A stretch of DNA of 64,000 bases, from positions 186,001 to 250,000 of the forward strand of contig NZ_RBKX01000001.1 of the NCBI RefSeq assembly GCF_003634615.1, written 5' to 3'. The notes beneath the pieces were generated by a model, which was not told where the DNA came from, did not search any database, and saw only the letters and a list, made by a program, of their open reading frames with translations. Source of the stretch: Flavobacterium sp. 102 (lineage in GTDB: Bacteria > Bacteroidota > Bacteroidia > Flavobacteriales > Flavobacteriaceae). A program made the translations under genes and the position numbers. Positions 3,247 to 33,479 of the stretch are shown here, one piece after another. Numbering within the stretch: the stretch's first letter is position 1; each line of letters opens with the position of its first letter.

Positions 3247-3319
3247 CGCGGGATAGAGCAGTAGGCAGCTCGTCGGGCTCATAACCCGAAGGTCACAGGT
3301 TCGAGTCCTGTTCCCGCTA
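3247..3319 (+). tRNA. Initiator tRNA-fMet (CAU)
   Basis: The 73-nt gene folds into a full cloverleaf: D stem GAGC/GCTC, anticodon stem TCGGG/CCCGA with loop CTCATAA (CAT at 3280-3282), T stem ACAGG/CCTGT with TTCGAGT loop, and acceptor pairs 2-71 to 7-66. Two initiator marks are present: position 1 (C) and position 72 (T) do not pair, and three G:C pairs abut the anticodon loop. No CCA is encoded. Its 3' part, from the anticodon loop on, is the left attachment repeat of the island. Confidence 0.97.
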
Positions 3320-3326
3320 CGAAGAG
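3278..3326 (+). repeat. attL: 49-bp attachment-site direct repeat in tRNA-fMet
   Basis: These 49 bp, from the anticodon loop to 7 bp past the tRNA end (CGAAGAG), are identical to 31246-31294. Sequence differs immediately on both sides of each copy. The tRNA 3' half duplicated next to a tyrosine integrase is the standard signature of tRNA-targeted integration. Confidence 0.93.
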
Positions 3327-3375: not shown

Positions 3376-4632
3376 ATGCCTAAATTTAACGTATTTTTAC
3401 TCAATGAATACAGAAATGCATACGTTTTGACTGCCAAGAAGAATTTTTCAGAGCCAAAAATCTATGACGCCAATGGTGACTTAACCAAGCGTTGGTATGT
3501 TTATTTCTCCTTTAGAAATCCTAAAACAGGATTACTCGAAAAGCAAACCCCTATTTACGGCAATGCGAACACTTTCAAAACCAAGCAAGAGCGTTATGAA
3601 ATTTTAAACGCTTATCGCAAAAGTCTTAAACAAGCATTAGAAGATGGATTAAGTCCGTATGATGATAGTGAGAAAAATTTGGGTGCTATTTCAGAAAAAC
3701 CGGTTTTGCAAAACACGCAAACAAATGAAGAGAATGGCATTGCAATTCCTGATGCATTTGCTATGGCAGTTAAAATAAAAGAGAGTGTTTTAAGCAAGAC
3801 GTCCTTTCCTAGTTTTAACAGTAACATCAAACGCTTTGAGAAATGGTTACTTGCAAGAGGTCTTGCAAGTGCAGATATTACAGCTATAACCAAAAAGCAT
3901 GTTATTGAATATCTCAATGAAGTTTTGGAAAACACTAGTCCGAGAACAAGAAATAATACCCGAATTGATTTAGGGTCATTATTTCAAACATTGGAGGATA
4001 ACGAACTCATTAAAGAGAATTTTATTAAAAAGATAAATGTTCTTAAGGCAACTCCTGAAAGAAACAAGACTTACACCAACACCTTGCAAGCAGACATCTA
4101 CAAGTATATGGAAGAGAATGATAAAATTCTGTTGCTGTTTGTAAAGTTCATCTCTTACAATTATCTAAGACCAATTGAAGTTTGCCGCTTGCAAGTAGGT
4201 GATTTAGACTTGGTAGATAGAAAACTATATGTTAGAGCAAAAAACAGTCCGGTAAAAACCAAAATAATCCCTGAGATTTTGATTAATGATTTGCCTGATT
4301 TATCCAAAATGGATAAAAAACATTACTTGTTTACTCCTCTTGCAATAGGTGGTGAATGGGAAACCGCCGAAACCGATAAAAGAGATTATTTTTCTAAACG
4401 ATTTAAAAAGGTAAAAGACCATTTCAAACTAGGGAAAGATTATGGTTTATATAGTTTTAGACATACTTTCATCACGAAACTGTATAGTGAGTTTGCAAAA
4501 GCCATGACACCTAATGAAGCTAAAAGCAAATTGATGCTAATAACAGGTCATAATACTATGGATGCATTGGAAAAATACTTAAGAGACATTGATGCTGTAC
4601 TGCCGGAGGATTATTCAAAGTTTTTGGATTAA
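3376..4632 (+). CDS. Tyrosine site-specific integrase of the island
   Basis: The 418-residue protein is a phage-type tyrosine recombinase that would integrate and excise the island at tRNA-fMet. An N-terminal arm/AP2-like region (1-115) is followed by a core-binding SAM-like domain (about 125-225) and the catalytic domain (230-418). Catalytic residues visible are Arg265 (YLRPIEV), Arg362 in YSFRHTF, His392 (TGHNT) and nucleophile Tyr401 (EKYL). The first His of the usual HxxR box is Tyr359 here. The ATG at 3376 directly follows the T tract of a terminator, so there is no normal leader; the frame is open further upstream without another clear start. It converges with the next gene, overlapping by 4 bp. 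Confidence 0.93.
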   Translation: MPKFNVFLLNEYRNAYVLTAKKNFSEPKIYDANGDLTKRWYVYFSFRNPKTGLLEKQTPIYGNANTFKTKQERYEILNAYRKSLKQALEDGLSPYDDSEKNLGAISEKPVLQNTQTNEENGIAIPDAFAMAVKIKESVLSKTSFPSFNSNIKRFEKWLLARGLASADITAITKKHVIEYLNEVLENTSPRTRNNTRIDLGSLFQTLEDNELIKENFIKKINVLKATPERNKTYTNTLQADIYKYMEENDKILLLFVKFISYNYLRPIEVCRLQVGDLDLVDRKLYVRAKNSPVKTKIIPEILINDLPDLSKMDKKHYLFTPLAIGGEWETAETDKRDYFSKRFKKVKDHFKLGKDYGLYSFRHTFITKLYSEFAKAMTPNEAKSKLMLITGHNTMDALEKYLRDIDAVLPEDYSKFLD

Positions 4633-22600: not shown

Positions 22601-23547
22601 AAGTTTTGTGTTGAACCAGGACTATTTAAGCCACCGAGAGGATTAGAAACATTCTTTATTATATAAGTTTTTGTATTAACACAGCCATTACTACCTACAG
22701 CAGTTATAACCATAGAATAAGCTCCAATCAAAGGATATGTATGTGAAATTGGAAAATTTATGTTATTCTCGCTATTTCCATCTCCCCAATTTATTGAAAA
22801 TGATGTGATGCACGAAGATGTTGTACTGACGTCATTACCTACTGTAATTGAATATATAGGATTAGAAGATGCTCCTGAACAGTTATTAAATGGATCTGAA
22901 AAGGGATTAATTACATCGATGAAATTAATATTTGGTTTTTGCTTTACAGTAATTACATTTGTTTTACTTACTATACATCCTCCTCCACCAGTAATGGTTA
23001 ATGTTACATTAAAAGTAGCTATACCACATCCCAACGATACAAATGAATGGATTGGATTCTGTTGTGTCGACAAGGCAGAAGAATCTCCAAAATCCCAAGA
23101 ATAAGTATATGGACCTCCGGTTACCAATGATGTAAATTGTATAGATGTACCTGAGCAGGAATTATTGTTGTTAAAACTAAAATCCAAATTTGGGAGTGGA
23201 ATTACATTCACCACTACAGGCGCCAAAGTCAGATTCTGAATACCAGACGAATCTTGTACACTAACCAAATTATAAGTAAATTGTCCTGTTGCGGAAGTAA
23301 CTATTGGTAATGTTACAACACTTCCGCTAGTAGTACTTATAGGCGGTTGGGCATTTCCATTTAGTGTATAGGTAAATGTGTAAGTTCCAGTTCCTCCGGC
23401 ACCTGTAAATGTTATAACCTGTCCTGTCGCATTCTGACAAATCGTTGAAGGTCCGGAAATAGTAGCCGAAGCGGCAATCGGGTTTTCATTAGCAAATCCG
23501 GATTGAACCCCAAACAGCAGCAAAAGGACAAAATAAATCTGTTTCAT
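16630..23547 (-). CDS. Giant T9SS type-B surface adhesin (SprB-like)
   Basis: This 2305-residue protein has a signal peptide (MKQIYFVLLLLFGVQSGFA), several PKD-type domains (about 130-620; WDFGD, NWGDGN, VDYGDGT, NFGDGT), further Ig/PKD-like domains, seven 98-residue Ig-like modules (about 790-1475) and seven SprB-type repeats (about 1576-2055; TCFGxxNGSI...GGTxPYxYxW...TVTDxxGC). A last PKD domain (WDFGDGT) and the type-B sorting domain (VVPTAFTPNNDTVNDTY to the C-terminus, about 2213-2305) follow. It should cross the outer membrane through T9SS and act in gliding, attachment or cell contact. It is coupled to a PorP/SprF gene and lies inside the mobile island. Confidence 0.93.
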   Translation of the reverse strand: MKQIYFVLLLLFGVQSGFANENPIAASATISGPSTICQNATGQVITFTGAGGTGTYTFTYTLNGNAQPPISTTSGSVVTLPIVTSATGQFTYNLVSVQDSSGIQNLTLAPVVVNVIPLPNLDFSFNNNNSCSGTSIQFTSLVTGGPYTYSWDFGDSSALSTQQNPIHSFVSLGCGIATFNVTLTITGGGGCIVSKTNVITVKQKPNINFIDVINPFSDPFNNCSGASSNPIYSITVGNDVSTTSSCITSFSINWGDGNSENNINFPISHTYPLIGAYSMVITAVGSNGCVNTKTYIIKNVSNPLGGLNSPGSTQNLCAPTANLQFSISNWGANSLDTTYSVDYGDGTPILLLTQNQLISSSYYNSGSPANSANYPIPHIYTASSCPAASYEVKLNVTNACGTTPFTLGNISILTKPTANFTAPLNGCINTNILFTNTTVAGYGQNCVLSSIYTWNFGDGTPIITTPLSPPQNISHTFTTPGTYTVTLTAQNFCGITTKTQQICIEPPLTPLFILSNTSGCAPFAITTNNTTSTANQCSPPTYNWQVTYASGNCGTTSNYTFTGGTNASSINPSFNFTESGTYTITLTATNSCAPPQTSTQTVTVKKPPTVTIASIPNACGSATITPTTNVTNCAPTGGALTYAWTFTGGIPATANTLNPGTITYPSGGPYSVTLQVTNECGVSNTATQSFSVGTAPTLTNTTLNQTICSGSQTTLVNLTANQPGTTFSWNATATAGITGFTPSGTTNTIPVQTISTTNANPGTVTYVITPTFNGCAGPTVNYVINVNPAPSITAQPASSSVCLNGSATILSVTLSNTSVTPTYQWYSNSSNSNSGGTLINGATSSTYNPPTNTPGTLYYYCVITLSSGGCFGLSTLAASVTVNPLPTITTHPLSTQNLCVGSTIPSALSIVSSGGIGTATYQWFSNTVNTTSGGTAISGATNATYTPPVFTVATTYYFYATVTLTGNGCGSVTSNIAEIVVFSDPIITAQPLVTQTLCQGATATNLEVTASGGNGSFTYQWYSNANNNTTSGTLISGATNATYNPPTTSVGTVYYYCIVSQATQGCSATSATAAVIINASPTILTQPQSSTVCSGGTPTVLSLTYSNGAGTPTYQWYSNTNNDTTSGTPISGETNPTYTPPANTVGIMYYYCLLTFPNITGSCATIATNTAAINVTAGATINQQPVISQNLCVGGTITTPLSVSYTGGTGTPSYQWYSNTSSSNTGGALINGAANANYTPPAFTSAGNAYYYVIISFSGSGCGTITSDVATVVVVDDPIITVQPTPTQTLCQNATANTLSVSVTGGIGGNYTYQWYVSSVNNTSSGTAIVGETNPMYIPTNNSPGTLYYYCIISQPNGAGCSVTSNISAITFNLAPAITNQPISSTICLGQSPNLLSFTITNGVGTPSYQWYSNTTNSNSGGTLLLGATNATYNPPAAVSGTTYYYCVVTFSAITGGCSVIATNATEVTINQNPVIASESLTICSGASFTVTPTNAGSNIVPTGTTYIWSAPTINPIGSITGATSETTPQTTISQTLINTTTSPATVVYTVTPTSGTCIGNNFTISVTVNPAINPNVVVNNNTCFGVNNASITTNITGGIPFTTGTPYVINWTGPNGFTSSAASIGNLAPGTYNVTINDAGGCPFSNSYTITEPTDIVITVDDENDITCFGSANGSINLTVSGGTGTYFYTWTHNGNPHATSEDISGLSPGTYVVSVTDANNCGPKTATFTITEPPLLVITLVNQTNVLCYGASTGAINVNVIGGNPGTGYNFFWTGPNTFTSSNQNVNAIPAGTYNLTVTDSNGCVKNLSVVITQSTEIIIAYTTTPITCYGANNASLTATISGGNAPYQYQWNNLATTLTQTNLSAGTYIITVTDNVGCIKTQTIIIPDAPVFTVNPIVVQVSCFGANNGSINLNLTGGIAPVALSWSDGSTSGLIRNNLAPGTYTATISDGTPCFIVRTFTIVQPQPLVAAVNISNPINCTNTNSGAIDLIVSGGTLPYSYSWSNGATTEDLSNLTSGNYAVTVTDAKGCTTTGQYTLIRPNPLQIAVNTQTTFNCTTHEVNQSFIAQGSGGVPPYNYQWSSGNVSGTNNEIMNSNTNGTVILTLTDSIGCTTTYSVNVDNLEIGYASFEPTSFGYTTYGIYSIGDPIQFNSTITGDYVSVSWDFGDGTFSTELNPEHTYLIPRDYVVTQTVTYPFGCVYVQTITLIVEKGYLLVVPTAFTPNNDTVNDTYRPVAKRLKEVQLDIYDTWGSLIYTEKGEVLVGWDGKIKGFNAENGNYYSKVTAETFYGTIVNENQTFVLIK
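17340..18845 (-). repeat. Seven SprB-type coding repeats in the adhesin
   Basis: Seven tandem modules of roughly 70-75 codons each contain a cysteine motif (TCFGANNGS-like), GGxxPYxYxWxxG, LxAGTYxVTVTDxxGC and a turn into the next unit. They are divergent at DNA level, unlike a recent expansion. The same repeat family builds most of the F. johnsoniae gliding adhesin SprB. Confidence 0.8.
19130..21185 (-). repeat. Seven Ig-like coding repeats in the adhesin
   Basis: Seven modules with a period near 295 bp (98 residues) begin with a QP motif (ITAQPASS, ITTHPLST, ITAQPLVT, ILTQPQSS, INQQPVIS, ITVQPTPT, ITNQPISS) and contain YQWYSN...SGxxxxGATNATYxPP...YYY. Modules alternate between a GGCS/Q-type and a GCGT-type second half, so the true expansion unit may be a pair of about 590 bp. 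Confidence 0.85.
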
Positions 23548-23635
23548 AATGTATTTTTATGATTATCATTTTTAATTTCTTAAAGCTTTGGGGACTGATG
23601 ACGAACTAAAATTAATTTTAAGCTAACTTGTCTGA

Positions 23636-23643
23636 CAAACATA
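23636..23643 (-). promoter_or_regulatory. -7 box of the adhesin operon
   Basis: TATGTTTG on the minus strand fits TAnnTTTG and lies about 89 bp upstream of the adhesin ATG, just after the HTH gene's stop. No clear TTG is found at the expected -33 position. Confidence 0.45.
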
Positions 23644-23661
23644 GTTAAAATTTTCTTAATT

Positions 23662-23877
23662 TTATCCTCTAAAATTTAATTCGCATTCTCTTTCATAATT
23701 GTACTTCTTGTTTTGCGAATCATAGGCTATCGGAGCATTTAGTTCTGTTTTCATGAATGTAATATAGTTGTACACGGTACGGACAGAAATTCCCAATCTT
23801 TCAGCGAGATCTTCTGAATTTCCTGCACGCTTCGCCTTAATGAGGTCGTGTATCTTTATGATGATTCGTATATCCAA
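23662..23877 (-). CDS. Small HTH transcriptional regulator
   Basis: The 71-residue protein is a winged/HTH_11-type DNA-binding domain: DLIKAKRAGNSEDLAERLGI, then SVRTVYNYITFMK as the recognition helix. It lies between the two-component genes and the adhesin operon, transcribed the same way. Its promoter (23885-23914) has the same boxes, spacing and a 16-bp identical segment as that of the kinase operon 12.8 kb away, which suggests that it controls both. The predicted transcript start is only a few bases before the ATG, so the mRNA would be nearly leaderless. Confidence 0.8.
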   Translation of the reverse strand: MDIRIIIKIHDLIKAKRAGNSEDLAERLGISVRTVYNYITFMKTELNAPIAYDSQNKKYNYERECELNFRG

Positions 23878-23884
23878 AACAGTA

Positions 23885-23918
23885 CAATTTTAAACATTAA
23901 CTCTGCAATCAAAATGCA
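23885..23918 (-). promoter_or_regulatory. Promoter/operator of the HTH gene
   Basis: On the minus strand TTTG (23913-23910) is followed after 17 bp by TAAAATTG (23892-23885). The segment 23903-23918 (ctgcaatcaaaatgca) is identical to 11138-11153 and here has perfect CTGCA/TGCAG arms around 7 bp. Overlap with the -33 region suggests repression or autoregulation. Confidence 0.6.
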
Positions 23919-23961
23919 GTACTACTATTTTGTAAACATAAAGGCATTATAGCCTCTGTCC

Positions 23962-23977
23962 TTACGGAAAACCGTAA
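23962..23977. promoter_or_regulatory. Inverted repeat TTACGG-AAAA-CCGTAA
   Basis: The palindrome lies about 50 bp upstream of the HTH gene's -33 box and 31 bp after the response-regulator stop. It is a near copy of the palindrome at 15519-15538 upstream of the HsdR_N gene. The dyad form fits a LuxR/FixJ-type dimer, and such a regulator is encoded next door. Confidence 0.5.
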
Positions 23978-24007
23978 AGCCAGTAAATAATTGAAAAAAT
24001 AGTGAAT

Positions 24008-24679
24008 TTAAATTATGCCAAAGTCCTTGGCAAACACAATAAGCTGAACCGTATTAGCAGCCTTAAAGTAATCTTTGAGTTTACTGATGCGCTTTTCGAT
24101 AGAACTTTTACTGTTCGGCGTGATGCCTAATTCCTTGAAACGGGATTCCATTTCGCCTTGTTTGATTCCGAGGGCTAATTGTTGGATAATCTGTACATCA
24201 AAAGCATCGATTTCCCGAGTGACATCTCCTTTGAAAATGTGTTGAAGATGCGGAGATATGTAAGTTCCGTTCTCTTCTTGAATCCTATGTATTGCTGTTT
24301 TCAAATGTTCAATACTGTTCCTTCCTTTATGTACAAAGGCATTAACATGCAAATCTTCGAATAATGATTTTACCCGAAAGCTTTTATCTTCTATGGAATA
24401 AACGATAATTTTCAATTCGGGTTGTAATTTTCGAATGGCAGTTATGCCTTCTTCTCCCGATTTGATTTTGACTTCCCGATGATCCTGTTCAAAGGAAAGA
24501 TCGGAAACCAATAAATCATATGGTACATTATCCAGTATCGCTTTTTTTATTTTCAGTACCGCATCATCACAATATTTGACATGGTCAACTTGTATAATGC
24601 CCAACTCACTAAGGGTTTGGCTTACGGCTATATTGATACTGTCTATATCTTCGGCAATTAGAACTTTTTGGAACATCAT
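24008..24679 (-). CDS. Response regulator (receiver plus LuxR-like HTH)
   Basis: The receiver domain (about 1-130) carries the acidic pocket AED and phospho-acceptor Asp in LLVSDLSF (Asp67 counted from the upstream ATG at 24700). The C-terminal region (about 165-230) resembles a LuxR/FixJ HTH (QIIQQLALGIKQGEMESRFK, SSIEKRISKLKDYF). The ATG at 24679, just after the kinase stop, or 24676 looks better than the overlapping 24700. It is the output partner of the adjoining sensor kinase. The nearby ACGG palindromes are candidate targets. Confidence 0.88.
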   Translation of the reverse strand: MMFQKVLIAEDIDSINIAVSQTLSELGIIQVDHVKYCDDAVLKIKKAILDNVPYDLLVSDLSFEQDHREVKIKSGEEGITAIRKLQPELKIIVYSIEDKSFRVKSLFEDLHVNAFVHKGRNSIEHLKTAIHRIQEENGTYISPHLQHIFKGDVTREIDAFDVQIIQQLALGIKQGEMESRFKELGITPNSKSSIEKRISKLKDYFKAANTVQLIVFAKDFGII

Positions 24680-24683
24680 CTGA

Positions 24684-26327
24684 TTATTTGGGTATGGCAA
24701 TAGTTACTCTGAATCCTTTTGTAGTCTCCGGTTCAAAAATAATCGTTCCCTTAATGTCATGAATACGGTTTTCCACATTTTGAAGTCCTTTTTTTGAAAT
24801 GGATAAATGTTCTGTTCCCAGACCGTTATCAGAATACTTGATTTCAATCATTTTCTCTGATGAAGTAAAGCCAATAACAACCAAGGAACTTTGGCTGTGC
24901 TTTTTCATATTGACCATCAGTTCCTGCAATACTCTATAAAGTGTAATCTTGGATTCTTTTTTTATCGAAGTCCAATCAACGTTTTGGAAATTATTGACAA
25001 TAACATTCACCTTTTCACTATTAAAGCTGTTGAGCAAATCCAATAGGGCAGTGTTGTATTTTTCGTCAGTCGGGATTTCGCTGTTCTGTCTTGATATATT
25101 GCGTGTTCGTGTATAAATATTGTCCAGACTTTCCAATAAAAATTCTCTTTTATCGGAATCCTGCAAATTCTGAGTTTCGGCATACGTCATGGTTTGGAAA
25201 ACATCGTTAGCCAATTCGTCATGTATTTTCTTGGCAAGACGTGTTTCTGTTTCATAGGAAATAAACTTTAATCGGTTTTTGTTTCGGGAACGGATTAAAA
25301 AATATAAAAGTGTACTCAGTATAATTGCTGAAATAAAAAGGATAAAATAGAGTTGCTTTTGTCCTTTTTGAATCTCAACATCTTTCAATGCTGTTGTTGC
25401 ATCATACTTAATTTTAGCAAACTGGTTTTTAGCCAATGTTCTTGCTAAATTTAAACTGTCATTTAATTTAATGTAATCAATGGCATAATTATTAGCCTTA
25501 GCAAAATCGCTGCTTTCAGCCAACCATCGTAATGCCTGAAGTTTGTCATCGGGACTATTCCTTTTTTTTGCCGCAAGAAGAGCATCTGCCGCATATTTTT
25601 TAGATTTTGACTTATCGTTTTGAAAGTATTCTGACAAATGAATGTTTGAAGCCATTAAGCCGTTATAATCCTGTAAACTATCCCGTAATTGTAATGCTTT
25701 CATAAGATTATCGTTGGCATCGGGAGAATTTAGTTTGAATTGTGCATATCCGAGGTTATCCAAAACACGTGCTATTTCATTTTTTTTATTTTGAAGGAAA
25801 GGATCTTTCAATTGCGGTTTCAACACTTCAAGGGCTTTATGATATTGCTTTCTTTCCAGATAATTCAGCCCGATGTTATTTTTTGTAATGGCTTTTGCGG
25901 TTTCGTCCTTAAAGGTAGCAAAGGCTTTCTCATAATAAGGAAGAGCATCAGCATACTTTTTCTGCTTATCATAAATAATGGCCAAAAGTTGGTAAAAATA
26001 CGGTTGGTATGTTGCGCCGGAATAATTCGCCAAACCTTCTGTTATGGTTTCCTCTGCACCACTAAAATCACCTATATATTGTTGAACAGTTGCCATCTGA
26101 AGCAAAACATACCCATATTCATCACCGGTTTTGTCTCGGCTGGCTTCTTTTGCCTGATTGTAATAAAGATAGGCACTATCCAATTGTGCTCTAGCGTAAA
26201 AAGCTTCTGCCTCATCCTTTGCTGTATAATACTTTTCGGTGTTCCTTACAGGTGAATCTATACAGGAACCTGTAAATGCGAGTAGTAATAAAAACAAAAT
26301 CGGGAAATGTACCTTTTCACGTATCAT
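24684..26327 (-). CDS. TPR sensor histidine kinase (HisKA_3/NarL type)
   Basis: The 547-residue protein starts with a hydrophobic segment ending in FTGSC, which may be a lipobox, then a periplasmic TPR sensor region (about 30-300), a membrane segment (QLYFILFISAIILSTLLYFL, 325-344) and the kinase core. Phospho-acceptor His369 lies in KKIHDELAND, and the ATPase domain has ELMVNMKKHS, DNGLG (500-504) and KGLQNVENRI. This form pairs with LuxR-type regulators, one of which follows immediately. A small proline-rich lipoprotein gene sits 47 bp upstream and could be its signal or accessory. Confidence 0.92.
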   Translation of the reverse strand: MIREKVHFPILFLLLLAFTGSCIDSPVRNTEKYYTAKDEAEAFYARAQLDSAYLYYNQAKEASRDKTGDEYGYVLLQMATVQQYIGDFSGAEETITEGLANYSGATYQPYFYQLLAIIYDKQKKYADALPYYEKAFATFKDETAKAITKNNIGLNYLERKQYHKALEVLKPQLKDPFLQNKKNEIARVLDNLGYAQFKLNSPDANDNLMKALQLRDSLQDYNGLMASNIHLSEYFQNDKSKSKKYAADALLAAKKRNSPDDKLQALRWLAESSDFAKANNYAIDYIKLNDSLNLARTLAKNQFAKIKYDATTALKDVEIQKGQKQLYFILFISAIILSTLLYFLIRSRNKNRLKFISYETETRLAKKIHDELANDVFQTMTYAETQNLQDSDKREFLLESLDNIYTRTRNISRQNSEIPTDEKYNTALLDLLNSFNSEKVNVIVNNFQNVDWTSIKKESKITLYRVLQELMVNMKKHSQSSLVVIGFTSSEKMIEIKYSDNGLGTEHLSISKKGLQNVENRIHDIKGTIIFEPETTKGFRVTIAIPK

Positions 26328-26374
26328 TTCCCGAAGTTATTAAATAATTTTAAGTTGCAATGCAAATCTTTAAA

Positions 26375-26563
26375 TTACATCGTTTTACCACCTCCCATTG
26401 CCGGTGGCGGTGGTGGTGGCGGTGGTGGTGTTGGAATACCATGTTGACCTCCGGTATCATCGGCTGTTTGGTTTTGAGTTGGTACCTGCATTTCATCAGC
26501 AGTACAAGATGTCATCGCGATTGACGACAAGATAAAAAACGAAAATAAAAGTATTTTTTTCAT
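26375..26563 (-). CDS. Tiny proline-rich lipoprotein
   Basis: The 62-residue product has a lipoprotein signal ending in AMTSC and a mature part of about 42 residues rich in Gln, Thr, Gly and a run of nine prolines, ending PAMGGGKTM. It is probably exported to the periplasm or outer membrane. Function is unknown. It is transcribed with or just ahead of the sensor kinase gene, and its long upstream region contains a strong inverted repeat. Confidence 0.72.
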   Translation of the reverse strand: MKKILLFSFFILSSIAMTSCTADEMQVPTQNQTADDTGGQHGIPTPPPPPPPPPAMGGGKTM

Positions 26564-26900
26564 GATTTTGACATTTTAAAATTGGACATAGTTGTGGCTA
26601 TTCGGGTACTGCCCGAAGCCCTTGCAAAGGCTAAAACCGATGCGGATTTTTAAGTATTTGAAATACCTTTTTGGGAAGTGAAGTGCGCTGTTACAGAACC
26701 GTTTGATTATACTTCCCGAATAAAAATTCAGTCCTGCTAAGCGTCACTTTTTAAGAAGTAGTTTTGTACATTTGTTCTTATCGCGAAATAGAACAAGAAC
26801 TAATTCTGAAGCAAAGGAATGTGGTTTTTGTATGAGTGTTTATAGGGAATTCCGGTATTTCCGATGTTTCCTGACTTTTCCTAAAAAATCCTGAACCAAT
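26564..26900. other. Divergent intergenic region with hairpin and promoter box
   Basis: The region separates the leftward lipoprotein/sensor genes from a rightward gene. An imperfect inverted repeat, GGCTATTCGGG (26596-26606) with CCCGAAGCC (26612-26620), would form a GC-rich hairpin in the leader of the lipoprotein mRNA. TACATTTG at 26767-26774 fits the -7 box of the rightward gene, with no clear TTG before it. I find no coding frame. Confidence 0.5.
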
Positions 26901-27743
26901 ATGAAACAAGATGACTTTGAAGCTTATAAAAAGGCTATAAAACAGCATTATGAGAAAGAAAAAAAAGGCAATTACTCGAGTTTTTTATTGCAACCGAGTA
27001 GAGCCAATTTGAGAAAGTTATGTGTAGAACGTTTGAAAGAGAATGCAGCTTATGATGACCCAAACACTTTTAAAATATTCATGGGATTTGAATTCAAACC
27101 TGAAAACATGAATAAGCTTAAAAATGAAACAGATCGTTTCAGAGCTATTGAGAATTTTTTAAAAGGAAGTACAGACAGTAATGATCTTGAAACCATAAAT
27201 CTGACTGCAATTTTAGTTGATTTTTCACCAAGACCTTTTTTGAAGTTTGTAAGATCCAATAACGGCGAAAAAAATGCCACAACAGATATTGTAGTAGAAA
27301 AGGATGAAGCTAAGACAGGAATAACTTCGGCTTTACCTCTGGGAAAAGAGCCAAGAAAAAAAAAGAAACTGATTTTAGGTCTACTTGGTTTTACAGCTCT
27401 TTTTTCTATAGGTTATACTGCAAAAGATTTGGTGCTGCCTGAAAAGGAATGTATGCAATGGCAAGACGATCATTATGTGGAGTTAGCATGTGAAAGTCAG
27501 ATATTGGGAATAAGAAAGTTTAATGAGCCAATACCCTATAATGAAATTGAATTTAACCGCAGAAAGTTAAAGGTCTGTGATACCACAACTTTTTTTAAAA
27601 ATGGAAAAGCTATTATCTGGTACAGCAAAGAAAATAATGTAGTTGCGTTTTACAATATGGACGGTATTGATCCTATTAATGGAAAAGAACTAAAACGGAT
27701 AACCCAACATATGATTCATAATCATGTTGACCCTTGTAGATGA
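26901..27743 (+). CDS. Single-pass membrane protein of unknown function
   Basis: The 280-residue protein has a basic cytoplasmic N-terminal part (1-150) with a helical region (DDFEAYKKAIKQHYEKEKKG, then PSRANLRKLCVERLKE), an RKKKK stop-transfer-like stretch, one membrane segment (about 157-172) and an extracytoplasmic C-terminal domain with four cysteines. Hypothetical proteins of this type occur in Flavobacterium, but I know no function. Its stop codon overlaps (ATGA) the start of a decayed copy of the tiny gene repeated downstream, so it may have belonged to that locus. Confidence 0.75.
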   Translation: MKQDDFEAYKKAIKQHYEKEKKGNYSSFLLQPSRANLRKLCVERLKENAAYDDPNTFKIFMGFEFKPENMNKLKNETDRFRAIENFLKGSTDSNDLETINLTAILVDFSPRPFLKFVRSNNGEKNATTDIVVEKDEAKTGITSALPLGKEPRKKKKLILGLLGFTALFSIGYTAKDLVLPEKECMQWQDDHYVELACESQILGIRKFNEPIPYNEIEFNRRKLKVCDTTTFFKNGKAIIWYSKENNVVAFYNMDGIDPINGKELKRITQHMIHNHVDPCR

Positions 27744-27921
27744 GAACTGAAGAAGTATATAACATTGTCATCCATCTTCATGAAAATGAATCAAAATAAC
27801 TTCATACTTAACTCAAAAGAAGTTATGCAAGAAAGACATTAAAAAAATAATCATGAATGTATTAATTTATAAATTTTATTAAAATCTCTTTCTTAAACTT
27901 ATATCAGTCTTGTAATAATAT
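27740..27921 (+). pseudogene. Decayed first copy of the tiny MRAEEVYN gene
   Basis: ATG 27740 begins MRTEEVYNIVIHLHENESK and then meets a stop at codon 20. Downstream to about 27921 the sequence still aligns with the intact copies (TTATGCAAGAAAG; ATATCAGTCTTGTAATAAT), but with indels. Its start overlaps the stop of the upstream gene as ATGA. Confidence 0.7.
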
Positions 27922-27949
27922 AACCGTAAATCACTTTGCGGCATTAATT

Positions 27950-28226
27950 CAACGCACTTACATCAATAAAACCATCCTTTTACAACCTACTCAACGCTAA
28001 CAACGTTCTATCAACGTAAATTCCACGGTAGCGTTGAAACTTTTGCAACGGTAAATCAACGGTGACCGCAATAACCATTCAACGCTAAGTAAACGTTACC
28101 ATAAAAGCCATGTAACGGTAAAACAACGCTATTGCAATGAGCGTTGCAAAATCCTCACGAATCCTCCGAAATGCTCACGAATGCGATGAAAAGCGATGAA
28201 ATGCTCACGAAAGCGGTGGAATCCTA
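27950..28226 (+). repeat. Helically phased arrays i and ii, first unit
   Basis: From 27950 to 28147 about a dozen CAACGSTAA-like words recur every 9-12 bp, some inverted (GCGTTG). From 28151 to 28226 nearly eight decamers follow in exact 10-bp phase, for example ATCCTCACGA, ATCCTCCGAA and ATGCTCACGA. The period is close to one DNA helical turn. No frame is open through it. Confidence 0.85.
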
Positions 28227-28248
28227 TTTTTTATTTTTTGCTCTCTTC

Positions 28249-28256
28249 TACATTTG
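28249..28256 (+). promoter_or_regulatory. -7 box for the second-unit tiny gene
   Basis: TACATTTG fits TAnnTTTG and lies between array ii and array iii, about 148 bp upstream of the tiny gene. The other complete unit has the same octamer at 28938-28945. Array iii would therefore lie in the mRNA leader. Confidence 0.6.
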
Positions 28257-28280
28257 AATCAACTTTAATGAACTTGTTCA

Positions 28281-28355
28281 GCTCGAAGCAAACCTGAACA
28301 AATGAAGTTAAATACAATTAAATACAAGTAAACCCAAGCAAATCCAAGCAAACCG
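28281..28355 (+). repeat. Array iii (leader), first unit
   Basis: Seven decamers in exact 10-bp phase share the form AAYnCAAGYA, for example AATACAAGTA, AACCCAAGCA and AATCCAAGCA. The array lies in the predicted leader RNA of the tiny gene and would be A-rich and poorly structured. Confidence 0.8.
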
Positions 28356-28403
28356 GAATTGATAAAATCGAATTTATAACATTTGTCAATCAAATGATTA
28401 TAA

Positions 28404-28607
28404 ATGAGAGCAGAAGAAGTATATAACATCGCCATCCATCTTCCCGAAAAGGAATTGGAGCGACTGTATACTTTACTCGAAAAGAGGGTTTGCAAGAAAC
28501 CAACTAAATCTTGCAAGACCACTAAAAAAAAATTGATAACAGATCAAGAAGCTAGATTGTATATATTGAAAACTGTTTTCAAAATTGATATTTCAGTCTT
28601 GCAATAA
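28404..28607 (+). CDS. Tiny basic protein, tandem copy 2
   Basis: The 67-residue protein (MRAEEVYNIAIHLPEKELER...) has a predicted helical N-terminal half and a very basic middle (KRVCKKPTKSCKTTKKK) with two cysteines, then ITDQEARLYILKTVF. It resembles small hypothetical proteins of Flavobacterium that begin with an EEVYNIA-like helix and end in a DEEARxYIL-like helix; function is unknown. The high identity to copy 3 together with different third positions supports real coding. It is preceded by phased repeat arrays. Confidence 0.75.
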   Translation: MRAEEVYNIAIHLPEKELERLYTLLEKRVCKKPTKSCKTTKKKLITDQEARLYILKTVFKIDISVLQ

Positions 28608-28691
28608 TAAAATGTGAATATAACCGCAGCATTCTTACAACGTTAAATAAGTACAATTGCAATCAATAAATCATTTTATTTAGATCCACTT

Positions 28692-28916
28692 CAACGCTAA
28701 CAACGCACCTTCAACGTAAACTTAACGGTACTGTTGCATTCTCATGCAATGTTAATTCAACGAATCGAGCAACGCTATATCAACGACCAGTTGAAAACGG
28801 TACAACGCTAATGCAACGCTCGTTATATTAGCATTGCAAAAGCTTCGAAATCCTCCTAAATCCTCCGAAAAGCTATGAAATGTGTCGGAATGCGGTGAAA
28901 AGCGATGAAATCCTAT
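28692..28916 (+). repeat. Helically phased arrays i and ii, second unit
   Basis: CAACG words recur every 9-12 bp from 28692 to about 28837. They are followed from 28841 to 28916 by nearly eight decamers ending GAAA in exact 10-bp phase (AGCTTCGAAA, TCCTCCTAAA, TCCTCCGAAA, AGCTATGAAA). The word content differs from the first unit but period, order and length are kept. Confidence 0.85.
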
Positions 28917-28937
28917 TTCTTATATTTTCCACTGTTC

Positions 28938-28945
28938 TACATTTG
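28938..28945 (+). promoter_or_regulatory. -7 box for the third-unit tiny gene
   Basis: TACATTTG is identical to the box in the preceding unit and lies at the same place between array ii and array iii, about 136 bp before the tiny gene. Confidence 0.6.
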
Positions 28946-28960
28946 ACTTAAGTTTTAAAA

Positions 28961-29033
28961 TGCAAACAAATCCCATCAAACGAAGTTAAATGGCACAAAA
29001 CACAATCAAACGCCATCAAACCCAATCAAATGG
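28961..29033 (+). repeat. Array iii (leader), second unit
   Basis: Seven decamers in exact 10-bp phase end in CAAA or TAAA (TCCCATCAAA, CACAATCAAA, CGCCATCAAA, CCCAATCAAA). They lie between the promoter box and the tiny gene copy 3, in the same position as in the previous unit. Confidence 0.8.
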
Positions 29034-29080
29034 AAATTGACAAAATACATTTTATACCATTTGTTGGTCAAAAAATTATA

Positions 29081-29272
29081 ATGAGAGCAGAAGAAGTATA
29101 TAACATCGCCATCCATCTTCCTGAAAAAGAATTGGAACGATTATATACTTTACTCGAAAAGAGAGTTTGCAAGAGACCAATTAAGTCTTGCAAGACCATT
29201 AGAAAGAAATTGATCACCGATGAGGAAGCTAGGAAATATATATTAAAAACTGTTTTTAAGATTGGTGTTTAG
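29081..29272 (+). CDS. Tiny basic protein, tandem copy 3
   Basis: The 63-residue protein is nearly identical to copy 2 over its first 31 residues (MRAEEVYNIAIHLPEKELER region) and keeps the basic KSCKT and IRKKLITDEEARKYIL parts, ending KIGV. An in-frame ATG at 29030 would add 17 residues, but copy 2 lacks that extension, so ATG 29081 is preferred. About 60 bp downstream is the end of an IS1-family element, which has displaced the next array. Confidence 0.75.
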   Translation: MRAEEVYNIAIHLPEKELERLYTLLEKRVCKRPIKSCKTIRKKLITDEEARKYILKTVFKIGV

Positions 29273-29333
29273 GTTTTGCAAAAGTATAATGGTTAATTGC
29301 AAGTATGAAAACCAATAAATCTCATTTTGATAA

Positions 29334-30029
29334 TCAACTCCAAAAGTAAATTTTCAAAATACAGAGTAGAATACTAAAACTTCGTGAGAAGCAAATTGTC
29401 TTTCTGTTCAACCTTTTTAAGTGTGTTCTTAAAGAGAGATTATTTCTTTCAATGCGGTTAGTTCCAAATCTTTTTACCTTGTGAATCTTTGAATCAATAA
29501 TTGATTTATATTGTCTTAAGCCATCCGTATAAATCGCTTTAGGTCTTGATAGCAAAAGTAAATCAATGACATTTTTCAATGTGCGTTTGGTTCTTTTTCC
29601 TATTGAAAAACTGACAACTCTTTTTGTTTTTCGTTCTAGCGCATAAACAATCCAAACCAAATTATCCTTTCTCGTTATAAAACTTCTCATTTCATCTACT
29701 TCATATGTTTTATCACTTGTAATTATTGGGTTTGAAATTCGCCTTGCAATGGCAACAATTCGTTTCAAAAGTGTTGTTGTTGATATTTGCAATATTCTTG
29801 CTGTGCTTCTAATTCCTAATCCTTCTTTTATGAATTTAATAATAGTCTCATCTTTAACTTGATAAGAATTATAACAATAAAAATCAATACTTCGTTTGCC
29901 ACAGCTTTTGCAAACGTATTGCTGCTTTTGGTTTTTAGCAAAGCCATTTTTAATGATACTTTTTGATTTACAATTAGGACAAATTCCTGCATCACTAATT
30001 CTGAAACAAGAGGTGTCATTTTTAATCAT
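29334..30029 (-). CDS. IS1-family transposase
   Basis: The 231-residue protein has an N-terminal zinc-ribbon (CPNC...CKSC), an HTH region (GLGIRSTARILQISTTTLLK) and the IS1-type DDE catalytic core: Asp in YEVDEMRSF, Asp in IYTDGLRQY and Glu in RIERNNLSLR. It is in one frame with no frameshift, as in many bacteroidotal IS1-like elements, and appears intact. It is inserted between the tiny-gene tandem and the zeta-type module. Confidence 0.92.
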   Translation of the reverse strand: MIKNDTSCFRISDAGICPNCKSKSIIKNGFAKNQKQQYVCKSCGKRSIDFYCYNSYQVKDETIIKFIKEGLGIRSTARILQISTTTLLKRIVAIARRISNPIITSDKTYEVDEMRSFITRKDNLVWIVYALERKTKRVVSFSIGKRTKRTLKNVIDLLLLSRPKAIYTDGLRQYKSIIDSKIHKVKRFGTNRIERNNLSLRTHLKRLNRKTICFSRSFSILLCILKIYFWS

Positions 30030-30058
30030 TTTATTCGTTTTAAGACATTTTCAAATGT

Positions 30059-30086
30059 AAAAAGGAGTGCAATAGTGCACTCCTTT
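30059..30086. terminator. Perfect 12-bp hairpin in the transposase leader
   Basis: Arms AAAAGGAGTGCA (30059-30070) and TGCACTCCTTTT (30075-30086) enclose ATAG. The hairpin lies 30 bp upstream of the transposase start, inside the IS. Such hairpins commonly stop outside transcription from activating transposase; its T-rich flank could also terminate. Confidence 0.6.
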
Positions 30087-30261
30087 TCGGGATTAATTTT
30101 TGTATGTATTTTGATTTACAAATTGTTAAGCGATGGATAATGGTTCATCACTAACTTTGGAACATTACCGTTTCTCCAAAAGTTTAGTGATTCTTAAAGC
30201 AATTTTAAAAATTTATTTTTGGGGCTAATTTTTTTAACTGAAAGAATGCTATCTCTAAAAA

Positions 30262-30289
30262 TAAAAAAGCTCCCAAATTGAGAGCTATT
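30262..30289 (-). terminator. Terminator of the zeta-toxin operon
   Basis: On the minus strand a 7-bp stem AGCTCTC/GGGAGCT (one G-T pair) with an AATTT loop is followed by TTTTTT. It lies about 20 bp beyond the stop of the small downstream gene. Confidence 0.8.
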
Positions 30290-30307
30290 AATTTATATTA
30301 AAAAAAA

Positions 30308-30454
30308 TCATGGTTTAATTCTAACAATTTTATCGTCTTTTAAAATAACTAAATCACTATTCATCTTCTTTTTGAATTCGATTAACTTTTCGTAAACCTT
30401 ATCCATTCCCTCCAAAATTTTAATCTGAGTTGGTGTTCTTTTATAAGTTTTCAT
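30308..30454 (-). CDS. 48-residue partner of the zeta-type toxin (antitoxin candidate)
   Basis: ATG 30454 to TGA 30308 encodes a 48-residue basic protein, MKTYKRTPTQIKILEGMDKV followed by a helical EKLIEFKKKMNSD part and a strand-like LVILKDDKIVRIKP end. It overlaps the last 14 bp of the toxin gene and precedes the terminator, so the two form one operon. Overlap with a zeta-like kinase suggests an antitoxin, although partners of classic zeta toxins (epsilon) are usually upstream and larger. Confidence 0.65.
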   Translation of the reverse strand: MKTYKRTPTQIKILEGMDKVYEKLIEFKKKMNSDLVILKDDKIVRIKP

Positions 30455-31025
30455 AGTAATATTTTTTTAGTTTATCGAATTTAACATTTTCAATAACATC
30501 TATTTCTGTTTCAAAGGTTTTCTCTGCTATTAGTACAGGCTTTCCCTCTGAGTTGTCAAAAATCATAGCCTCGTTAACTAATGGCAAATATATATCAAAT
30601 AAATTTATTATACCATTTCGGTATCTTCGCTTTATCACCTCTGTTGGAATATTATGACCGCCTTCTTGAACTCTTGTTTTGACCCTTTCGATAGCCAATT
30701 CAACATTTTGCAACCAAAAGAAAAGAAGCGTAACAGTATAGCCTTGTTTTTGCGCCTTAATTACCTTTGACTTATAACTCTTTGTTGCCAAAGTTGTTTC
30801 AAAAGCAAAGTTTTGATTAAGCTCAAAAAGCTCATTGATTCTATGAAGCATTATTCTTCCTGCTTCAAATGAAACCTTCTCAGGTTGAAATGGAGACAAC
30901 CCTTTTGCAATCTCATCTGCGTTGACAAACTCTTTGCAGTCTAATATTTCTGGTAAAATAGTAAAAGAAGCTGTGGTTTTTCCTGCTCCATTGCAGCCTG
31001 CAATTATGTATAGGTTTTTATTCAT
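30441..31025 (-). CDS. Zeta-toxin family P-loop kinase
   Basis: The protein (about 194 residues from ATG 31025; an ATG 8 codons earlier is less likely) has Walker A GCNGAGKTT, an EFVNADEIAKGLSPF region, FAFETTLA and the Arg-rich IKRRYRNGIINL lid, all typical of zeta-like toxins of the AAA_33/zeta group. Zeta toxins phosphorylate UDP-N-acetylglucosamine or related sugars; this short form's substrate is unknown. It stabilises mobile DNA in many hosts and is here close to the island's right end. Confidence 0.85.
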   Translation of the reverse strand: MNKNLYIIAGCNGAGKTTASFTILPEILDCKEFVNADEIAKGLSPFQPEKVSFEAGRIMLHRINELFELNQNFAFETTLATKSYKSKVIKAQKQGYTVTLLFFWLQNVELAIERVKTRVQEGGHNIPTEVIKRRYRNGIINLFDIYLPLVNEAMIFDNSEGKPVLIAEKTFETEIDVIENVKFDKLKKYYYENL

Positions 31026-31114
31026 TACAACAAATATAAGCAAATTCAATTTTTATAAGTAATCCCGTTTTACAATTCGAAATAATACAAAAATAGAAAT
31101 CAAAATAAAAATGC

Positions 31115-31174
31115 TATCTTTGCAACTGAAACAGGAATAATTTTATTAATCTGATTGCATACTAAATTGCATAC
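31115..31174 (+). promoter_or_regulatory. Outward promoter box and ATTGCATAC direct repeats near attR
   Basis: TATCTTTG (31115-31122) is a good -7 box pointing across attR, and its context TTTGCAACTGAAACA resembles that of the tRNA-fMet promoter. Two copies of ATTGCATAC (31154-31162 and 31166-31174, 12 bp apart) follow. Paired repeats near an att end are candidates for integrase arm or excisionase sites. Confidence 0.5.
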
Positions 31175-31245
31175 GTTTTAATGAACTTACTCTTCGGATG
31201 AGCGGAAAATGGTTGTTTTTGAGGGGTTTTTGATTGTGAAATCAA

Positions 31246-31294
31246 CTCATAACCCGAAGGTCACAGGTTCGAGTCCTGTTCCCGCTACGAAGAG
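31246..31294 (+). repeat. attR: 49-bp copy of the tRNA-fMet 3' region
   Basis: The 49 bp are identical to 3278-3326. It covers the anticodon loop, T arm, acceptor 3' strand and 7 bp beyond, without the tRNA 5' half, so it is not a second tRNA gene. It marks the right end of the island. Confidence 0.93.
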
Positions 31295-31328
31295 AAGCCA
31301 TTCTGAAAAGAGTGGCTTTCTTTTTTTA
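31295..31328 (+). terminator. Original chromosomal terminator of tRNA-fMet, displaced
   Basis: Directly after attR are 10-bp arms (31295-31304 and 31309-31318, one T-G pair) with a GAAA loop, followed by a T-rich tract. In the uninterrupted chromosome this would sit 7 bp after the tRNA. Confidence 0.8.
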
Positions 31329-31342
31329 TCAAAAGTATTCTT

Positions 31343-31795
31343 ATGAACATGAAAAAAATTGTCGAGTACAGAGCGTTACTTGGTGTTACAAAGACAGCAA
31401 CTCTTAAAGAGTTAAAGACCATTTACAGAAACAGCATGAAAGATTCACATCCGGATGCTATTACAGATGATGCTGAACGTCTGGCAGCAGAAGAAAAAAG
31501 TAAAGAAATCATTGCGGCTTATCATTTCTTGGTAAGTATAGCCCCTGAAACTTTGGAAAAAGACAAAGCTGAGTATACACGAATCACTACAAGCACTAAC
31601 ATTGCTGATTTTTATTATGAAAATAGTGTTTTGTATATTACTTTCTTAGACGGCAATTCTTTTGAATACTTTGGTGTTCTTAGACCTATTTACATTAAAA
31701 TGGTAAACGCTGAATCACCAAGTCGTTTTGCCCGAAGACATATTTATAATGAATTCATTTACCGAAGCACTTCCAAACTAGTAGCTGCGGAATAA
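31343..31795 (+). CDS. J-domain-like / KTSC domain protein
   Basis: The 150-residue protein combines a short DnaJ-like segment (YRALLGVTKTATLKELKTIY, then SHPDAI with the HPD motif) and a C-terminal KTSC domain (YENSVLYITFLDGNSFEYFG...SPSRFARRHIYNEFIYR). The KTSC domain is found at the end of some lysyl-tRNA synthetases and in phage and bacterial small proteins. Its role is unknown, but the HPD motif suggests an Hsp70 contact. It is the first gene outside the island and ends before a strong terminator. Confidence 0.8.
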   Translation: MNMKKIVEYRALLGVTKTATLKELKTIYRNSMKDSHPDAITDDAERLAAEEKSKEIIAAYHFLVSIAPETLEKDKAEYTRITTSTNIADFYYENSVLYITFLDGNSFEYFGVLRPIYIKMVNAESPSRFARRHIYNEFIYRSTSKLVAAE

Positions 31796-31801
31796 ATCAT
31801 A

Positions 31802-31836
31802 AAAAAAGGTCTCAAACAATAAGTTGAGACCTTTTT
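31802..31836. terminator. Bidirectional terminator
   Basis: Arms AAAGGTCTCAA (31805-31815) and TTGAGACCTTT (31824-31834) are flanked by an A run and a T run, so it can serve both the KTSC gene and the convergent LRR gene. Confidence 0.85.
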
Positions 31837-31863
31837 CTTCTTAATAAACCAACACAAAACATC

Positions 31864-32718
31864 TTATTCATCTGCAGCAAATGCTGAGTTTTTATCTATA
31901 CTCACTTTTAAAGTAGTAGCAACACCTTGCTCATTGACCATCGTCATATTTAAAGTATCCAGTTTAGCTAAATTTCTTGAAACAAAACCGTTGAACATAT
32001 TGTAAGAAATATTCATCTCTTTCAAGTTGTGTAGTTTTTCTAAATCGAAAGGTACTTGTCCGTCCATTTTGTTTTCAAATAAACTTAAGGTTTCTAAAGA
32101 AGAAAGGTTTGATACTTCTTTCTCTAATTTCCCAGTCAATTTATTACTGTTTAGTAACAACACTTTTAAAGATTTCAACTGGTAATAAGAAGTTGGAATC
32201 GCACCTTCGATTTCATTATTAAATAAAGAAAGCGTTTCAAGATTTGTTAAAGTTCCAATATTTACCGGCAAAACACCTGTCAGTCTGTTCATATGCATTT
32301 CGATTGATTTCAATTGAGAAGCATTACCTAATGTTTCCGGCAAAGCACCTGTTACTTTATTGAAAGCAACATTCAATTTAGTCAAACTTTTTAAATTACC
32401 TATAGATTCAGGTAAAACACCAGAAATATCATTTCTGAACAAATTTAAAACTTCTAGGGAAGTCAAATCACCTATTTCTGTTGGCAACTCTCCTACAAGG
32501 TTATTGTTCATTAATTTTATCCCTATAACTTTATCGTTTTTGATTTCAACACCGTACCAAGTTGTGGTTGGTGATTTTAAATCCCATTTGTTGGTCCATT
32601 GTGAACCTTTGGTCGCTTTGTATAATTTGATCAAAGCATTTTTTTCTGTTGAAGATATTTCGGCGAATACTGAGGTTGAAACCAAAAGCACAGCTAAACA
32701 AGTAAAAATAGATTTCAT
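31864..32718 (-). CDS. Secreted leucine-rich-repeat protein
   Basis: The protein of about 284 residues starts at ATG 32718 with a signal peptide (MKSIFTCLAVLLVSTSVFA), then a cap region with W residues (GSQWTNKWDLKSPTTTWYGV) and about seven LRRs of the plant-like type (LxGxLPxxIGxLxxLxxLxL). No C-terminal T9SS sorting domain is visible. It probably acts outside the inner membrane as a binding scaffold. A longer open frame from 32778 lacks a signal. Confidence 0.88.
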   Translation of the reverse strand: MKSIFTCLAVLLVSTSVFAEISSTEKNALIKLYKATKGSQWTNKWDLKSPTTTWYGVEIKNDKVIGIKLMNNNLVGELPTEIGDLTSLEVLNLFRNDISGVLPESIGNLKSLTKLNVAFNKVTGALPETLGNASQLKSIEMHMNRLTGVLPVNIGTLTNLETLSLFNNEIEGAIPTSYYQLKSLKVLLLNSNKLTGKLEKEVSNLSSLETLSLFENKMDGQVPFDLEKLHNLKEMNISYNMFNGFVSRNLAKLDTLNMTMVNEQGVATTLKVSIDKNSAFAADE

Positions 32719-33423: not shown

Positions 33424-33444
33424 TTTAACATTTTATTATAAACC

Positions 33445-33476: not shown

Positions 33477-33479
33477 ACT

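Follow-up and report, generated by a model that had tools for sequence, protein, structure and literature searches.

Helically phased repeat arrays beside small-protein genes in a tRNA-Met integrative element of Flavobacterium sp. 102: a possible control and assembly site

We analyzed a stretch of 64,000 nucleotides from Flavobacterium sp. 102 (contig NZ_RBKX01000001.1, positions 186,001 to 250,000 of the forward strand; hereafter the window, with positions counted from its first letter), in which two tandem units, 677 bp apart and each harboring a gene for a small protein, are located near the right end of a 28-kb integrative element. Each unit is ordered, from 5′ to 3′, as a cluster of CAACG words, an array of words in 10-bp phase, a TACATTTG box, a second 10-bp array in the leader and the small gene, with every feature cited by two-dot coordinates lying on the + strand. 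In unit 1, these are a distal CAACG/CGTTG cluster delimited by word density (27950..28146), an upstream array of AATCCTCACG-like words (28150..28229), the box (28249..28256), a leader array of CAAATCCAAG-like words (28287..28360) and a small gene from the list of open reading frames (ORFs) encoding 67 amino acids (aa; 28404..28607). The corresponding features of unit 2 are a CAACG cluster, again by word density (28638..28833), the upstream array (28834..28918), the box (28938..28945), the leader array (28962..29035) and a small gene encoding 63 aa (29081..29272). The longest ORF of unit 2 is open from 29030 and has 80 aa, and its start was set at 29081 because of its likeness to unit 1. A sequence-only reading of the window had described small genes of 63–67 residues and a TACATTTG promoter box in both units, and both were recovered. 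Its tandem repeats are also real, but there are three of them and not two, with a first, broken copy at 27740..27799 that runs for 19 codons up to its first stop and whose ATG (27740) overlaps the stop codon of a 280-aa ORF. No copies of the small gene beyond these three, the broken one included, were found in the whole genome (3.8 Mb, single contig).

The periodicity of the arrays was measured as a lag-match z against 500 dinucleotide-preserving shuffles per array. At lag 10, the upstream decamer arrays have z of 5.92 (unit 1) and 7.21 (unit 2), with 0/500 shuffles reaching either, while the leader arrays have z of 5.47 (unit 1, 0/500 shuffles) and 3.69 (unit 2, 1/500), so the exact 10-bp arrays that had been proposed upstream of the promoter and in the leader all beat their shuffles. 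The CAACG zone, which had been put forward as a further array, kept its dense cluster of words but lost its strict periodicity, since its lag-match score was reached by 158/500 and 24/500 shuffles. Eight CAACG words in unit 1 and eight to nine in unit 2 stand within about 200 bp; none of 20 stretches sampled from this genome, each 20 kb long, has more than four in 200 bp. The words of the units are spaced by 9–12 bp or by gaps of 22–54 bp, roughly multiples of 11. A 400-kb sample of the same genome contains 34 periodic stretches at z ≥ 4.5, of which one has lag 10.

Units 1 and 2 can be aligned as tandem duplicates, with 63/89 identical positions in the decamer array, 52/74 in the leader array and 166/204, gaps counted, in the coding sequence. 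The free drift of words between units that had been assumed is contradicted by this alignment, in which the AA step is unchanged: the AA columns, which were chosen after a consensus that itself includes the window arrays, show 0/28 changes between the units and the other columns 41/112 (p = 3e-5). Under a looser definition that takes all A-runs of unit 1, 2/19 against 18/51 positions are changed in the upstream array (p = 0.07) and 3/35 against 18/35 in the leader array (p = 2e-4). In copies b and c of locus L090, 1/22 positions in the A-runs of b and 30/66 of the rest are changed (p = 3e-4), or 5/26 against 26/62 when the A-runs of either copy are counted. Of the internal gaps that separate unit 1 from unit 2, the two larger ones measure 11 bp each, one lying in the CAACG zone and the other between the −7 box and the leader array; single-base gaps are also present, and one of the two alignments made of the units shows an additional gap, of 10 bp, ahead of the CAACG zone. 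Loci L118 and L119 (339/349 identical) are set apart by a single 10-bp unit within the array and a single base outside it, while L112 and L114 differ by 30 bp inside the array, by 7 bp outside the leader array and by 33 bp further up. The arrays of L091 d and e differ by 13 bp and several gaps of 1–2 bases before an identical gene start, so the array changes much faster than the gene behind it. Rotated to fit, twenty arrays share a core word, (S)CAAATSCTn, with a core score of 1.707 against a null of 1.117 ± 0.067, and 0/200 column-permuted sets scored higher (related pairs included), which tells against the earlier view that the word sequence is free. The words vary between loci, whereas an AA step is retained once per helical turn.

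Forty regions were fetched from relatives, providing 51 upstream regions (650 bp), the window's two included, from 45 distinct loci that were hand-chosen, mostly by score, from the search hits. The threshold of z 4.5 was reached by 18/51 upstream regions (lag 10 in 17 of them, lag 11 in the other) and by 41/871 control windows, none with lag 10. These 18 count two arrays twice (L090 8729/9096 and L092 8069/8419) and include related pairs (L118/L119, L112/L114 and the two window units), and an apparent array in L111 that was due to a run of N was discarded. Scored in this way, about a third of the upstream regions carry once-per-turn words, which in the window lie on both sides of the −7 box. 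The mean match over 16 arrays, from windows picked for lag 10, reaches 0.66 (lag 10) and 0.55 (lag 20), with 0.20–0.35 at the other lags. The 871 control windows are mostly coding, and the test of AA periodicity used 305 regions upstream of other ORFs instead. Against these, the AA periodicity of the 51 regions is raised at 10 bp (15/51 above the control 95th percentile, p = 0.003) and 10.5 bp (14/51, p = 0.0002), weakly raised at 11 bp (p = 0.015) and not raised at 7–9, 12 or 13 bp. Loci L030, L031 and L093 were missed by the word test, yet they stand at the top of the control range for AA periodicity. The proposal that spacing by helical turn is kept gained from the lag of the strong arrays, from the AA periodicity at 10–10.5 bp, from the 11-bp gaps and from the single 10-bp unit that separates L118 from L119.

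Among 22 loci with the integrase, lag-10 arrays were found in three, each where the small gene stands. In 12 operons with a helicase-like gene, a lag-10 array at z ≥ 4.4 lies before the helicase in three (L106, L109 and L115, with the order helicase–small gene–primase), so that it precedes the helicase gene and not the small gene directly. Some 20 copies of AAAACCTTCC/GC stand immediately before the gene in L080, another locus with the small gene. Because of these three results, the array is best described as found with the operon that holds the small gene, and the stronger claim that it always precedes the small gene is not supported, as 33/51 upstream regions have no strong array. Other arrays were also noticed at the relatives' loci. 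L104 (7815-7901), L106 (7984-8083), L107 (7976-8073) and L109 (8117-8218) have a second array type, with CGTAAT words every 9 bp in both orientations, between the small gene and the primase-like gene of the helicase–small gene–primase elements. What appears by eye to be the cut-off start of an integrase gene precedes the small gene, with its array, in L096 (upstream of 893).

The element around the units lay beyond the view of the sequence-only reading. An intact tRNA-Met(CAT) gene detected by ARAGORN (3247..3320) is the integration target, and an exact 49-bp direct repeat (att) is found at its 3′ end (3278..3326) and again at 31246..31294. At the left end, 3376..4632 encodes a tyrosine integrase of 418 aa, identified with Pfam (Phage_integrase, E 4.6e-6, 27.0 bits with a cut-off of 27.1; Phage_int_SAM_1, 23.6 bits with a cut-off of 22.3), and an integrase beside att direct repeats at a tRNA gene is what defines a tyrosine-recombinase integrative element. 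Two TGCATAC words 12 bp apart (31156..31174) beside the right att and one further TGCATAC word at 3417 near the left att are possible integrase arm sites. That the arrays themselves are bound by the integrase was examined as well: the candidate arm words differ from those of the arrays, and of the arrays seen at the 22 integrase loci, the three with lag 10 stand at places with a small gene and one with lag 11 (L137) does not. Tandem units as relics of successive integrations were also considered and rejected, with no att remnant of at least 10 bp between the units. Among genomes with handles up to G120, handle numbers being assumed to follow the drawing order, 13/14 with the small gene or its C-terminal tail also carry this integrase, always on the same contig, while the integrase overall occurs in 21/121 genomes; the 13 include G059, in which just the tail is present, and several genomes with weak profile matches, G024 and G113 among them. 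The distance from the small gene or tail to the integrase, start to start, ranges from 1.25 to 28.6 kb, and is 20–29 kb in six of the 13 genomes, the window included. A tRNA-Met gene stands beside the integrase in 7/8 loci mapped in detail. Judged by its genomic company, the small gene thus goes with elements whose tyrosine integrases form one family. Searches with tblastn in phage and plasmid collections gave no match, and the IMG/VR scan gave no relative.

Relatives of the small protein numbered 482 in the protein collection at E ≤ 0.001, and no Pfam domain was found among the 120 matches listed. The gene or its tail occurs in 51/398 genomes of the genus sampled and in 34/299 of the family sample, both counts including proteins that share only the C-terminal tail. 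In the phylum sample 4/247 genomes were positive, all four in the Flavobacteriaceae, which themselves form part of the sample, and a restriction of the protein family to the Flavobacteriaceae is likely. The AlphaFold2 model (pLDDT 81) places helices at residues 3–11, 15–30 and 47–57, so the small protein is predicted to be a helical hairpin, a lysine-rich linker (residues 31–46, net charge +7) and a C-terminal helix. Its last approximately 30 residues (KK.LITDEEA..YLLKTVFK) also end proteins of 220–330 aa, nearly all of which are coded just after an integrase of this family. The shared segment aligns over 32 columns (hhalign 95.6%, E 1.2e-8), the partners having first been found with the small-protein profile, and it is borne by at least two apparently different bodies. 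In a 227-aa bearer (predicted template modelling score, pTM, 0.72), the end is again modeled as a helix (residues 211–222) behind a low-confidence stretch, and a PDB fold search with its body found no match at E < 0.001 (best E 0.67). The Pfam, NCBIfam and PHROGs families scanned include none that matched the small protein or its tail-bearing partners. At two loci, L121 and L123, the small gene takes the usual place of the tail-bearing protein, between the integrase and a zinc-finger ORF, and L110 holds both forms, suggesting that the C-terminal segment is a docking helix supplied either in cis or in trans. In 12/45 loci, the small gene lies between AAA_25 helicase-like and DUF6371/zinc-ribbon primase-like genes.

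The TACATTTG box fits the Bacteroidetes −7 consensus TANNTTTG (TAnnTTTG) given in the excerpted text of PMC6847099, which also places A/T motifs at −18 and −28 in promoters of Flavobacterium johnsoniae, a box-to-start spacing of 4–5 nt and a mean leader of 33 nt. With that spacing, the boxes at 28249 and 28938 put the transcription starts near 28261 and 28950, close to the 28260 and 28950 that had been proposed, and the leaders would be 143 nt (unit 1) and 131 nt (unit 2) long. Counted from TACATTTG, the last upstream AA step stands at about −41 in both units, and the steps of unit 1 run from about −41 and −51 on to −101. The order array–box–array recurs in the independent locus L029, and copies b and c of L090 have an array that extends into a TATTTTTG box.

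Taken together, these features suggest that the arrays may be the control and assembly site of a tRNA-Met integrative-element family of the Flavobacteriaceae, a promoter-spanning operator and scaffold resembling parC, a reading to which we give a probability of roughly 0.38. The arrays would be bound cooperatively, once per helical turn, most likely by the small protein. It would oligomerize along one face of the DNA, with its basic linker touching the AA step of each turn; once both arrays were filled, the promoter would be folded into a loop and the protein's own operon shut off. The row of aligned C-terminal helices might then offer a multivalent hook to a partner from the replication or recombination machinery of the element. 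The model for this arrangement is parC of plasmid R1, where, as far as the excerpts of PMC5016525 go, ParR contacts 10-bp repeats, fills two repeat blocks, loops out the promoter between them and represses it, and presents its clustered C-terminal tails to ParM. Both systems have direct repeats with a length of about one turn, grouped in two blocks on either side of an operon promoter, and a small protein encoded by that operon which binds DNA, here putatively, while looping repression and tails that recruit a partner are parC features proposed here by analogy. Repeats of about 10–11 bp split around the operon promoter are found in the window units and in L029, and not in most relatives. Unlike ParR, which is a ribbon-helix-helix protein, the 60–70-aa small protein is predicted to have three helices and no strand (pTM 0.33, a weak test), and no PDB relative of note was found. 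ParR-parC has the actin-like ParM, whereas the 17 window ORFs scanned hold no filament-forming partner, and in contrast to plasmid R1 the site lies in a chromosomal integrative element, with the whole unit in tandem copies. As fold and partner differ, the likeness to parC would be one of working and not of family membership.

Several observations weigh against the parC-like reading. To the 33 upstream regions lacking a strong array are added the 9/12 helicase operons with no array at z ≥ 4.4 before the helicase, a lag-11 array in the integrase locus L137, which has no small gene in its flank, and the 11-bp arrays of L084 and L089, where no small gene was seen within the 3-kb loci. Arrays at random places, which would tell against any tie to the small gene, are nearly but not wholly lacking in the 400-kb sample of the same genome, as its single lag-10 array (L172) stands without a small gene. 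A TAnnTTTG box adjoins the array in 5/19 loci examined and is lacking in 14/19. The fold model of the small protein is small with a low pTM (0.33), its PDB fold search found nothing at E < 0.001 (the best match, at E 6.5, being the N-terminal helical hairpin of L12), and a Pfam scan (E ≤ 1e-5) of 17 window ORFs, part of the ORFs of the element, found no ParM, ParA or TubZ family. Near-identical proteins also lie behind quite different words (the G273 units in L090 and L091), which makes it less likely that the small protein reads the sequence tightly; loose reading of the word with only the AA of each turn strictly kept would explain this. A bolder form of the proposal, which we regard as doubtful, is that the arrays represent a new class of nucleoprotein assembly, in which a protein of 60–70 aa would recognize its DNA mainly by phase, through one AA per turn, leaving the word between the AA steps free to diversify from copy to copy, and in which the row of docking helices, the same helix as that fused to the C-terminus of other element proteins, would switch the element between silence and excision or replication. 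On balance, what the sequence-only reading observed was partly confirmed, and its interpretation was partly supported, namely in the spacing by helical turn; cooperative binding along one DNA face upstream of the promoter would be compatible with the layout, and a repeated RNA target in the leader was not supported.

The arrays could instead be iterons of a replication origin in the excised element, with the A+T-rich stretch between the two arrays as the melting region; the initiator that reads them would be the helicase-like protein, the primase-like protein or the small protein. The order helicase (AAA_25)–small gene–primase-like (DUF6371 plus zinc ribbon) in 12 of the 45 loci and the direct repeats adjoining A+T-rich DNA fit such an origin, and according to the excerpt of PMC7145576, iterons serve a Rep protein in satellites such as PLE. 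We consider it rather unlikely, as the same 17-ORF scan of the window found no helicase, primase or Rep-like family, most array-bearing loci lack a helicase or primase gene in the fetched stretch (some stretches being short), the helicase operons mostly lack a strong array, and a single-copy origin is not expected as two tandem copies 677 bp apart. Many iterons have a period of about 20 bp, and the 10-bp period here is a further difference from iteron-Rep origins, as is a word that varies by locus behind near-identical proteins. Iteron-Rep origins otherwise resemble the arrays in their direct repeats beside A+T-rich DNA and, at some loci, in the helicase- or primase-like genes nearby, though no Rep-like gene was seen among the scanned ORFs of the window element. 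Unlikely, too, is an extended, helically phased A/T element that would boost the promoter through contact with RNA polymerase, making it an analogue of the UP element that suits the sigma factor of Bacteroidetes. In Escherichia coli, UP elements classically stand at −43 and −53; here, unit 1 has AA steps near −41 and −51 and at further turns up to −101, and the last step of unit 2 likewise stands at −41. The part of the array under constraint is AA, and the A/T motifs of F. johnsoniae at −18 and −28 are consecutive turns from the −7 box (PMC6847099, excerpt). Such an element would leave the leader arrays, the C and G positions of the shared core and the rarity of the arrays (0/871 control windows, one place in 400 kb) unexplained.

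In a neutral minisatellite, slippage repeats would have spread by tandem duplication, hitch-hiking with the gene, and the period would be kept only since the copies are recent. Units 1 and 2 are indeed duplicates, L118 and L119 differ by one repeat unit and L115 has about eight near-perfect copies, but this account is improbable given AA columns that stayed unchanged while 41/112 other sites changed, a common period and core at loci with different words, and the arrays of L091 d and e, which are the fastest-changing part beside an identical gene start and yet keep their period and position. A repeated RNA target in the leader had been part of the sequence-only reading. In the form in which the small protein binds its own mRNA every 10 nt, it now looks distinctly improbable: the same word type, in the same phase, also occurs upstream of the promoter, which speaks for a DNA rather than an RNA target, and it is not obvious what a helical-turn period would mean on a single strand of RNA. 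The small protein is basic, the 280-aa ORF family has ATTCC words just 5′ of its start codon, and the leaders, by their inferred starts, are several times the mean of 33 nt in the excerpted F. johnsoniae data, all of which would suit an RNA target. Very improbable is intrinsic curvature of the DNA by phased A-tracts with no dedicated protein. Predicted curvature is slightly above that of column-permuted arrays on average (mean z 0.63, n = 17), but L110, L112, L114 and L096 fall below their permuted controls (z −0.9 to −1.5), and curvature was rejected as the common denominator of the arrays.

Omega/ParG has a repeat unit of 7–8 bp. The type Ib repressors of this kind are, in the excerpt of PMC5016525, likewise very small and in part unstructured, with short-repeat arrays that overlap promoters; unlike the small protein, they are ribbon-helix-helix proteins with a ParA partner. 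In type III toxin-antitoxin systems, a repeat unit of tens of nucleotides ending in a terminator stands before the toxin gene, whereas the repeat unit here is 10 bp and the small protein has no match to a toxin-like family. Near att, NBU/CTn-type elements of Bacteroidetes carry a tyrosine integrase together with small ORFs and genes resembling primases, and we know of no description of them that includes such arrays. They also differ from the present element in that the small protein and its tail-bearing partners lack a family match in the scanned collections. NBU1 needs further proteins for its excision (PMC6764341, excerpt). In the literature searched, which includes few subscription journals, nothing was found on such arrays, their control of elements or this protein family. 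The parts are of known kinds, while their combination and the constraint on phase over word are new to us. If the parC-like reading is true, the arrays would be a DNA site whose information lies mostly in helical phase and not in word sequence; diverged arrays behind almost identical proteins would offer a natural series for testing how cooperative proteins read spacing. The finding also marks a protein family without a name, together with a putative docking helix common to several proteins, in a family of integrative elements.

Other contents of the element and its relatives were also recorded. The cargo at 6700-10575 includes a kinase–phosphatase–TerY triad (PADLOC models STK_OB, PP2C and TerY), which resembles a defence system, and an IS1-type transposase (29334-30029) and a zeta-toxin-like gene (30441-31049) lie between the units and the right att. 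In L136, L144, L145 and L152, 12-bp repeats (GTACACGATTTA-like) stand inside the 5′ end of the integrase gene; they resemble words near the other att and are possible arm sites within a coding sequence. From 2911 in L152, on the integrase strand, an ORF whose start looks by eye like that of Cas9 directly follows an integrase of this family. Beside tail-bearing ORFs, the 11-bp arrays of L089 (1124-1293) and L084 (624-730) repeat CACCGTTGCTC about ten times and GTTTGTTGCGG about four times, respectively.

The 280-aa ORF upstream of the units (26901..27743) has no Pfam family, and its relatives also precede small genes in L090 and L092, as judged by eye. The family is present in 143/299 genomes of the genus. 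Its leader in the window contains TTTCC/ATTCC words at 9–10 bp (26835..26905; lag-10 z 4.63, and in the separate shuffle test 3/500 shuffles reached the observed value), and the same words occur in relatives. Rfam searches of three loci with the 280-aa ORF and of the window from 20000 to 36000 each gave one chance-level match and nothing relevant. By eye, the leader (window 26740-26905, L173-L202) looks better kept than the protein. An interrupted palindrome spanning 44 alignment columns surrounds TACATTTG in this leader, and 4/12 of its pairs show compensatory changes in a fold computed with 25/30 fetched loci (L179, L184, L187, L193 and L195 being left out). The palindrome is followed by ATTCC words at 9–10 bp that reach the start codon of the 280-aa ORF, and lag 9 or 10 at z ≥ 3.9 was observed in 23/30 of these loci, which are related to one another.

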